DNA of 64,000 bases from Salipiger pentaromativorans (lineage in GTDB: Bacteria; Pseudomonadota; Alphaproteobacteria; Rhodobacterales; Rhodobacteraceae). Below are positions 37,029 through 39,204 of the stretch, one piece after another. A model generated the notes under the pieces. That model saw nothing but the letters and a program-made list of their open reading frames with translations, searched no databases and was not told where the DNA came from. The position numbers and the translations under genes were made by a program. How positions within the stretch are numbered: the stretch's first letter is position 1; every line of letters starts with the position of its first letter. Where the stretch lies: the NCBI RefSeq assembly GCF_024721115.1, contig NZ_JAMDHK010000004.1:85862-149861 (forward strand). The letters run 5' to 3'.

Positions 37029-37102
37029 TGGAGCGGGCGACGGGAATCGAACCCGTATCTCTTGCTTGGAAGGCAAGGGTCTTACCATTACACAACGCCC
37101 GC
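37029..37102 (-). tRNA. tRNA-Gly (TCC anticodon)
   Basis: 74-nt cloverleaf on the minus strand with encoded CCA (37029-37031) and a 7-bp GCGGGCG/CGCCCGC acceptor stem. The anticodon stem CTTGC/GCAAG encloses CTTCCAA, anticodon TCC, and the T-arm contains GGTTCGATTCC. The D-arm TGGTAA is normal. Confidence 0.95.
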
Positions 37103-37306: not shown

Positions 37307-38383
37307 ATGGCCTTCGATTTCATCCTGATGCTCACCGAGAACGACCGCACGATTCCGGAGGCACGGGCGCGGCTCGACGAGGCGCTGGAAGGCGGCGTGC
37401 GGCATATCGGCTTCAAGGATGTCGGGCTGCCGTTCTCCGAGCTCAAGGGGCTGGCCGATGCCATCCGCGCGGCGGGCGGGCGCTCGTATCTGGAGGTGGT
37501 GAGTCTGGACGAAGAGAGCGAGCTGGTCTCCGCCCGCGCGGCGGTCGAACTGGATGTGGATTGTCTTCTGGGGGGCACGCGGCCGCAGGCGGTAACCCGG
37601 GTGACCCGCGATCATCCGCTGCGCTACTTCCCCTTCGCGGGCCGGATCACCGGCCATCCCAGCGTGCTGGAAGGTCCGGAAGGAGAGATCGTCGAGTCGG
37701 CTCGCCGGCTGGCCGATCTGGAACATGTGCACGGGCTCGACCTGCTGGCCTATCGCTTTGCCGGCGAGGTGCCGGCGCTGATGACGGGCGTCTGCTCTGC
37801 CGTGGGCAAGCCGGTGATCATGGCGGGCAGCATTGACAGCGAGGCACGGATTCTGGCCGCCGCCGAGGCCGGGGCCGCCGGCTTTACCGTCGGCACGGCG
37901 GCGCTGGCGGGGGCCTTTCCCGCCGAGGGGCCGGGCTTTGCCGCACAGGTGCGCGCGATCATGGGCTTCACCGCGCGCGGACGGGCCCGCTCGACCGCGC
38001 CGCGCCGGCTGGCGCTGGCCGCGCATGACACCCGCAAGGCGCATCTGCGGGCCTGGGTGATCCGTCACGCGGCGGCGCTGCGGGGGCACCGTCTGGTCTG
38101 CACCGGCGGCACCGGGCGGATGATCGCCGAGGCCGCGCCGCAGCTCAGCCTGCGCCGCCTGCAACGCGGTTCGCACGGGGGGGACCAGCAGCTCGGAGCG
38201 CTGATCGCCACCGGCGAGCTGGATGCGGTGATCTTTTTCGCCGATCCCACCGTGCCGCATGGCGGCGAGGCGGATCTTCAGGCGCTGAGCCGGCTGGCGG
38301 CGCTGCACGACACGCCGCTGGCGCTGGGCCCCTCCGCCGCCGACATGATCGCCACCGCGCTGCTGGCCGCGCCCGGCGTTTGA
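37307..38383 (+). CDS. TIM-barrel / methylglyoxal synthase fusion protein
   Basis: 358-aa protein with two parts. Residues 1-221 form a TIM-barrel-like domain: FILMLTENDRTIPEA at the first strand, HIGFKDVG near 33-40, a phosphate-site-like AGSIDSEARILAAAEAGAAG (173-192) and VGTAAL (195-200). Residues 235-353 match methylglyoxal synthase: AAHDTRK (H240, D241, K244), CTGGTGRMIAEA, GGDQQLGALI with the catalytic D293, FFADPTVPH (H318) and ADLQAL. The second part should convert DHAP to methylglyoxal plus phosphate. The first domain is not one I recognise. Start: ATG 37307, no strong ribosome site. Followed 32 bases later by the LHPP-like HAD gene. Confidence 0.85.
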   Translation: MAFDFILMLTENDRTIPEARARLDEALEGGVRHIGFKDVGLPFSELKGLADAIRAAGGRSYLEVVSLDEESELVSARAAVELDVDCLLGGTRPQAVTRVTRDHPLRYFPFAGRITGHPSVLEGPEGEIVESARRLADLEHVHGLDLLAYRFAGEVPALMTGVCSAVGKPVIMAGSIDSEARILAAAEAGAAGFTVGTAALAGAFPAEGPGFAAQVRAIMGFTARGRARSTAPRRLALAAHDTRKAHLRAWVIRHAAALRGHRLVCTGGTGRMIAEAAPQLSLRRLQRGSHGGDQQLGALIATGELDAVIFFADPTVPHGGEADLQALSRLAALHDTPLALGPSAADMIATALLAAPGV

Positions 38384-38415: not shown

Positions 38416-39204
38416 ATGATCAAGGGGATTCTGCTCGATATCGCGGGCGTGGTGCTTGACGGCGAGACGGCGCTGCCCGGCGCGGCGGAGGCGGTGGAGG
38501 CCCTGCGCGCGGCGGGGCTGCCGCTGCGGTTCCTGACAAACTCCACGCGCAAGCCGCGCCGGCGGGTGGTTGCGGCGCTGCGGGACGCGGGTATCGAGGT
38601 GGCCGAGACGGATGTGCTGACCCCCGCCGCCCCGGCGCTGGCGCGGCTGCGGGCGGGCGGATACCGCCCGCATCTGCTGGTGCATCCCGATCTGGAAGAG
38701 GATTTTGCCGGGGCGCCGGCCTCTGGCCCGGAGGCGCTGGTTCTGGGGGATGCGGGCGAGGGGTTTTCCTATACGCGGCTCAACGCGGCGTTCCGGGTGC
38801 TGGAGACCGGGGCGCCGTTTCTGGCGCTGGCGGCGAATCGGGTCTTCCGCGACGCCGACGGGCAGCTCAGCCTCGATGCCGGGGCCTTTGTCCGGGCGCT
38901 GGAATATGCCAGCGGCACGCCGGCCGAGGTGCTGGGCAAGCCGGCGCCGGCTTTCTTTCGCGCGGGCTGCGAGAGCATGGGGCTGGCGCCGTCGGAAGTG
39001 GCGATGGTCGGAGACGATGCGGAAAGCGATGTCGCGGGCGCGCTGACGGCCGGTCTTGGGCAGGCATTTCTGGTGGAGACGGGCAAATACCGTCCGGGAG
39101 ACGAGGCCCGCGCGCGCCTGGCGCCCACCGCGGTGCTGCCGGGGCTGGGCGCGGCGGCGGCGCGGATCCTGAGCGCATCGGCGGGAGAGGGGCCTCTTGC
39201 GTGA
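38416..39204 (+). CDS. LHPP-like HAD phosphatase (subfamily IIA)
   Basis: 262-aa HAD protein that follows human LHPP (phospholysine/phosphohistidine inorganic pyrophosphate phosphatase) closely in motif order: MIKGILLDIAGVVLDG for motif I, FLTNSTRKPR, LVLGDAGEGFSYTRLNAAF, LDAGAFVRALEYASGTPAEVLGKPAP, MVGDDAESDVAGALTAG and VETGKYRPGDE. Motif I is D8-I-A rather than DxD, as in LHPP (D-I-S), so the usual second Asp is missing. It probably dephosphorylates pyrophosphate or phospho-amino acids. Coupled to the MGS fusion gene upstream. Confidence 0.88.
   Translation: MIKGILLDIAGVVLDGETALPGAAEAVEALRAAGLPLRFLTNSTRKPRRRVVAALRDAGIEVAETDVLTPAAPALARLRAGGYRPHLLVHPDLEEDFAGAPASGPEALVLGDAGEGFSYTRLNAAFRVLETGAPFLALAANRVFRDADGQLSLDAGAFVRALEYASGTPAEVLGKPAPAFFRAGCESMGLAPSEVAMVGDDAESDVAGALTAGLGQAFLVETGKYRPGDEARARLAPTAVLPGLGAAAARILSASAGEGPLA

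Follow-up and report, generated by a model that had tools for sequence, protein, structure and literature searches.

Within a window of 64,000 nucleotides from contig NZ_JAMDHK010000004.1 of the marine bacterium Salipiger pentaromativorans, we analysed a gene whose product joins an N-terminal triosephosphate isomerase (TIM) barrel to a C-terminal domain resembling methylglyoxal synthase (MGS). The fusion is real and fixed, and a possible new pathway lies behind it. The function that we tentatively favour, with somewhat less than even confidence, is that of a two-domain enzyme for a three-carbon phosphoketone, either dihydroxyacetone phosphate (DHAP) or its amino analogue 1-amino-3-phosphoacetone. 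This class, to which the substrate of methylglyoxal synthase belongs, is supported independently by the gene context of the barrel's relatives, among which a link to PdxA, not noticed in the first-pass annotation, is the main functional clue.

The barrel-MGS fusion and its conservation

The fusion frame on the forward strand is open from its ATG start to a stop codon at 38381-38383 and yields a product of 358 amino acids. A scan of species genomes with the fusion protein returned 93 relatives, of which the best 80 were retained (hereafter the 80 fusion loci); all of these 80 cover residue 1 to at least residue 340, with identities of 64-90%. In a separate set of 101 genomes, made up of 100 relatives and the genome of the window itself, matches were found in 25, comprising 14 with the whole chain (the window's own included), two with the barrel alone and nine with the MGS domain alone. 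The two domains form a one-frame chain in all 94 full-length loci obtained by adding these 14 to the 80 from the species scan, two sets that partly share species and in which the window's own copy is counted, and an alignment of 51 fusion rows spans 358 columns, exactly the length of the window protein. The first-pass annotation had described a continuous frame with both halves intact, and these counts bear it out. They also refute the idea that a sequencing or assembly error joined two genes; stand-alone MgsA is indeed the normal state, but nothing else was found in favour of such an artefact, and its probability is negligible. A search of open-access papers found no account of a fusion between an MGS domain and a barrel, nor of a link between such a domain and PdxA, in agreement with the earlier suggestion that a two-step enzyme of this kind had not been described.

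The C-terminal half proved to have the MGS fold, with 121.3 bits for residues 231-353 against NCBIfam NF003559, a methylglyoxal synthase model (cut-off 84), and 32.8 bits for residues 259-338 against Pfam MGS PF02142 (cut-off 24.1). The equivalents of E. coli MgsA D71, H19, K23 and D101 are invariant across the 51 fusion rows, as is R287, and the equivalent of D20 (D241) is variable, being D in 29 rows and N in 22. The initial claim that all key MgsA residues are kept, which named H240, D241, K244, D293 and H318, therefore held only in part: all five are present, but H318 sits two residues ahead of position 320, which aligns with E. coli H98 and is never H, and none of the 13 fused rows compared retains T47, S65, P67 or H98, all four of which occur in each of the 18 readable stand-alone MgsA rows. 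At the position of T47, residue 268 is G in 48 of the 51 rows and never T. Compared with MgsA (EC 4.2.3.3; NF003559, TIGR00160), the window protein thus shares the C-terminal fold and the equivalents of H19, K23, T45, T48, G66, D71 and D101, and differs in its barrel, in the four lost residues and in a score of 97.8 bits, under the TIGR00160 cut-off of 146.9.

Several of these features would suit an ordinary methylglyoxal synthase acting on DHAP, with the barrel as a partner (an isomerase or aldolase, for example) on the same pool and the whole chain serving as a DHAP overflow valve. The NF003559 cut-off is passed, the equivalents of D71, H19, K23 and D101 are kept, no second MGS match occurs in any of the 14 fusion-bearing genomes of the 101-genome search, and in an account of MgsA residue H98 is termed accessory (PMC7843640). 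The shortfall against TIGR00160 and the loss of the phosphate-pocket residues T47, S65 and P67 in all fused rows compared nevertheless make this reading unlikely. With T47, S65, P67 and H98 gone, the lyase may have a substrate other than DHAP, and the re-shaped pocket suggests a shift away from plain DHAP. The MGS-like domain of carbamoyl phosphate synthetase has a ligand-sensing, controlling role, and the same four losses, together with the variable D20 equivalent, would also fit a non-catalytic half that senses a ligand and controls the barrel. Retention of the catalytic base D71 and of the H19, K23 and D101 equivalents in every fusion row argues against such a sensor, which we consider improbable.

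Table 1. Positions of the fusion gene, its two domains and their conserved motifs in the window.
Feature	Position	Strand	Basis or observation
Entire fusion gene (TIM barrel and MGS-like domain), 358 aa	37307..38383	+	Open reading frame, homologue scan, alignment
N-terminal barrel, residues 1-222	37307..37972	+	Predicted structure, barrel family profile
Barrel K37-D38 (FKDVG), end of strand 2	37415..37420	+	Invariant in 33 barrels; strand 33-37 predicted
Barrel E63, end of strand 3	37493..37495	+	Invariant in 33 barrels; strand 59-64 predicted
Barrel H117 (GHP loop)	37655..37657	+	Invariant in 33 barrels
Barrel D145-R150 (DLLAYR), strand 6 and after	37739..37756	+	R150 invariant, D145 nearly so, in 33 barrels
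Barrel AGSID, residues 173-177, likely phosphate loop after strand 7	37823..37837	+	A173 and G174 invariant, S175 nearly so
Barrel VGTAA, residues 195-199, likely phosphate loop after strand 8	37889..37903	+	G196 and A198 invariant
C-terminal MGS-like domain, residues 232-353	38000..38365	+	
H240, D241 and K244, equivalents of H19, D20 and K23	38024..38038	+	H and K invariant in 51 rows
TGGTG, residues 266-270, phosphate motif; third residue (E. coli T47) lost	38102..38116	+	51-row alignment
R287-G-S-H-G-G-D293-Q-Q; substitutions at S65 and P67, D293 retained as equivalent of the catalytic base D71	38165..38191	+	Alignment
H318-D323; H318 out of register with H98, whose position holds G320; D323 retained as equivalent of D101	38258..38275	+	Alignment

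The barrel family and its link to PdxA

The N-terminal half is confidently predicted to be a phosphate-binding TIM barrel without a named function, as had been proposed at first sight. Structure prediction of the barrel alone (residues 1-228) gave a predicted local distance difference test (pLDDT) score of 96.6 and a predicted template modelling (pTM) score of 0.92, and invariant polar residues lie at the ends of the strands (Table 1). Residues 1-221 score under all cut-offs in Pfam and NCBIfam. The match of the window barrel to HisA/His_biosynth (PF00977) was 13.3 bits and did not reach the gathering score of 23.6, which was passed by three of 20 relatives scanned (L140, L141 and L164) with 25.2-25.4 bits over about 80 of 228 positions. 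In its fold and its C-terminal phosphate motifs the barrel resembles known phosphate-binding TIM barrels such as hexulose-6-phosphate synthase, PdxJ, KDPGal aldolase, HisA and PcrB/GGGPS; however, sequence matches to these are limited to the common C-terminal phosphate part, and the family is set apart by an invariant set of its own (FKD, E63, GHP and R150).

A profile of the barrel family matched 23 of 289 alphaproteobacterial genomes at E<1e-69, the next match lying at 3.7e-5, and 12 of 398 genomes of the phylum at E<=1e-20. Gene context was assessed at 41 loci, consisting of 20 alphaproteobacterial stretches (from 19 of the 22 further genomes that the profile clearly matched), 10 stretches from the phylum and 11 plasmid records picked from 22 hits; genes were counted by tblastn because a purpose-written gene caller failed to find the anchor gene at 7 of 80 loci and mis-called loci of high G+C content such as L134 and L148. 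Three of the 41 loci are MGS fusions. Among the remaining 38, 17 have a PdxA gene immediately upstream in the same orientation; all 17 have a divergent LysR gene and 12 also a DUF1537 kinase. A cupin is fused to the C-terminus of 12 barrels, nine of which follow PdxA. The plasmid records carry PdxA in 10 of 11 cases (unannotated in L177 and found by tblastn), with the kinase in nine of those 10 and a threonine aldolase within the stretch in four (L171, L177, L181 and L182); the eleventh record, from Staphylococcus, is without PdxA, kinase and threonine aldolase.

Barrel and PdxA also occur as a single protein. A natural PdxA-barrel fusion of 603 residues is encoded in L164 (5852-7663) and a second, at 71% identity, in L210, so that at least two of 200 genomes searched of that family have one (G523 and G891). 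The analysis thus defines a barrel enzyme family that has no named function, and the natural fusions to PdxA, an MGS-like lyase or a cupin point to a substrate class for it that can be tested. Further off in the barrel tree, a branch of 18 rows has a glycerol-1-phosphate dehydrogenase gene in the locus of six, one of them 7 kb away, and FGGY kinase, GlpD, DeoR or HAD-IIB genes in some loci. Stand-alone barrels that adjoin the dehydrogenase gene are L142, L145, L147, L150 and L169, some of them with FGGY kinase, GlpD or HAD-IIB; together these genes make up a glycerol-phosphate cluster not yet assigned to a function.

A tree of 59 barrels places the 21 MGS-fused ones in one clade (support 100/98), whose sister group (98/93) consists of five PdxA-linked barrels. 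These five were counted as stand-alone, but one of them, L164, is the PdxA-barrel fusion. The earliest branch among the MGS-fused rows is L100 (unstarred support 89/79). At this locus pdxA overlaps the start of the barrel-MGS gene by 4 bases, and at L084, which lies outside the tree, by 11 bases; the PdxA proteins of L084 and L100 score 385.2 and 382.7 bits, respectively, against the TIGR00557 cut-off of 290.35.

A candidate tandem reaction on a three-carbon phosphoketone

We infer that the barrel and the MGS-like domain act on a three-carbon phosphoketone, since this is the point at which the PdxA operons, the glycerol-phosphate operons and the MGS substrate meet; the individual reactions of barrel and lyase we also infer, that of the lyase from its residues. 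In the first-pass annotation, a barrel making or binding a triose phosphate for the MGS site had been put forward as a possibility. 1-Amino-3-phosphoacetone is the product that PdxA forms from phosphohydroxythreonine. In the ancestral pathway a kinase would phosphorylate a four-carbon acid, a PdxA-type enzyme would oxidise the phosphorylated acid, and loss of CO2 would give the phosphoketone, which the barrel would bind or rearrange using K37, E63, H117, D145 and R150. The MGS-like domain would then use D293 as the base to eliminate the phosphate of the ketone, or perhaps of its amino analogue, and so form methylglyoxal or a closely related compound. In most Rhodobacterales a PdxY-like kinase, often the neighbour instead of PdxA, may supply the phosphorylated substrate.

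A direct cascade, with the barrel taking the unstable phosphoketone straight from a PdxA-type enzyme and the re-shaped MGS domain eliminating its phosphate, is a somewhat doubtful proposition. If true, it would be a branch of metabolism not described so far, serving to catabolise or detoxify four-carbon acids or the antimetabolite 4-hydroxythreonine, and a bacterial outlet, so far unrecorded, for the short-lived product of PdxA-type reactions. For 4-hydroxythreonine this branch would run from 1-amino-3-phosphoacetone through methylglyoxal imine to methylglyoxal, ammonia and phosphate. The barrel family would then represent a new enzyme activity, found by itself or in fusion with MGS, cupin or PdxA, and DHAP may not be the substrate of some proteins that pass a methylglyoxal synthase model.

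Excerpts from the literature on the operons concerned describe the surrounding chemistry. DUF1537 kinases phosphorylate 4-hydroxythreonine and work in four-carbon acid catabolism, and LtaE is part of a route from glycolaldehyde to 4-hydroxythreonine (PMC7954711); bacterial breakdown of L-threonate leads to DHAP (PMC12540250); PdxA2 is regarded as a catabolic paralogue (PMC9997740); and PdxA-type enzymes yield three-carbon phosphoketones, the chemistry of PdxA, DUF1537 and threonate being treated in PMC7954711 and PMC12540250. The sister clade of the MGS-fused barrels is PdxA-linked and found mostly in such DUF1537 kinase/PdxA2 operons for four-carbon acids, with a LysR gene, but the window gene does not adjoin one, and the excerpts name neither a barrel nor an MGS-like step.

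A number of observations weigh against a phosphoketone tandem enzyme, beginning with the four pocket residues lost from every fused row compared. PdxA is adjacent in only two of the 80 fusion loci, and no DUF1537 homologue occurs in any of the 80 stretches (which extend up to 6 kb a side, several being shorter). In a search of 25 genomes, more than one PdxA-like match was found in 5 of 17 with the fusion vs 8 of 8 without it, and a DUF1537 match, always distant, in 11 of 17 vs 8 of 8; the window's own genome is without a DUF1537 match. Among these genomes, then, additional PdxA or DUF1537 genes do not accompany the fusion outside the operons, and extra PdxA copies are not enriched where it occurs; the fusion may draw its phosphoketone from another source. 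Neither PdxA nor the PdxY-like kinase adjoins the window gene; pdxA alone stands beside the fusion in L084 and L100, and kinase and PdxA together beside many barrel relatives. Finally, a fold search with the barrel singled out no phosphoketone enzyme.

The PdxY-like kinase is often found upstream of the fusion in Rhodobacterales (28 of the 80 loci, two of them at more than 800 bases), and it matches pyridoxal-kinase models, in every case under their cut-offs. At E<1e-79 it was found in two of 101 genomes, both times beside the fusion (two of the 14 fusion-bearing genomes), and on these counts we rejected it as an obligate partner. A role in vitamin B6 metabolism, with PdxA and this kinase as true B6 enzymes and a PdxJ-like barrel, is very improbable: PdxJ ties with pyruvate kinase and others in the fold search, the kinase stays under all pyridoxal-kinase cut-offs, many neighbouring kinases are DUF1537, and the second barrel branch is accompanied by glycerol-phosphate genes.

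Annotation of barrel relatives and genes flanking the fusion

Stand-alone barrels on several plasmids (L172, L173, L178, L179 and L182) carry the label 4-hydroxythreonine-4-phosphate dehydrogenase, a mis-annotation that the present analysis exposes and that was apparently copied from the neighbouring pdxA. The PdxA-barrel operon of L178 lies near genes annotated for ectoine/hydroxyectoine transport, and that of L181 near genes annotated for amino-acid breakdown. On a Staphylococcus warneri plasmid, L175:6992-7654 encodes a remote relative of the barrel with 32-35% identity and a very long branch. Four fusion genes (L068, L070, L076 and L085) come from contigs whose titles assign them to metagenome bins of Verrucomicrobia or Gemmatimonadetes; L068 and L076, which are the two included in the tree, group among alphaproteobacterial rows, making mis-binning or transfer possible.

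In the window itself, a HAD-IIA phosphatase gene (38416-39204, forward strand; 217.5 bits against the TIGR01458 cut-off of 175.95) begins 32 bases after the fusion. We rejected it as a general partner, since a single one of the other 80 fusion loci has a homologue, and there the distance is about 3 kb. A tRNA-Gly (tcc) gene at 37029-37102, on the reverse strand, lies a short way upstream of the fusion.
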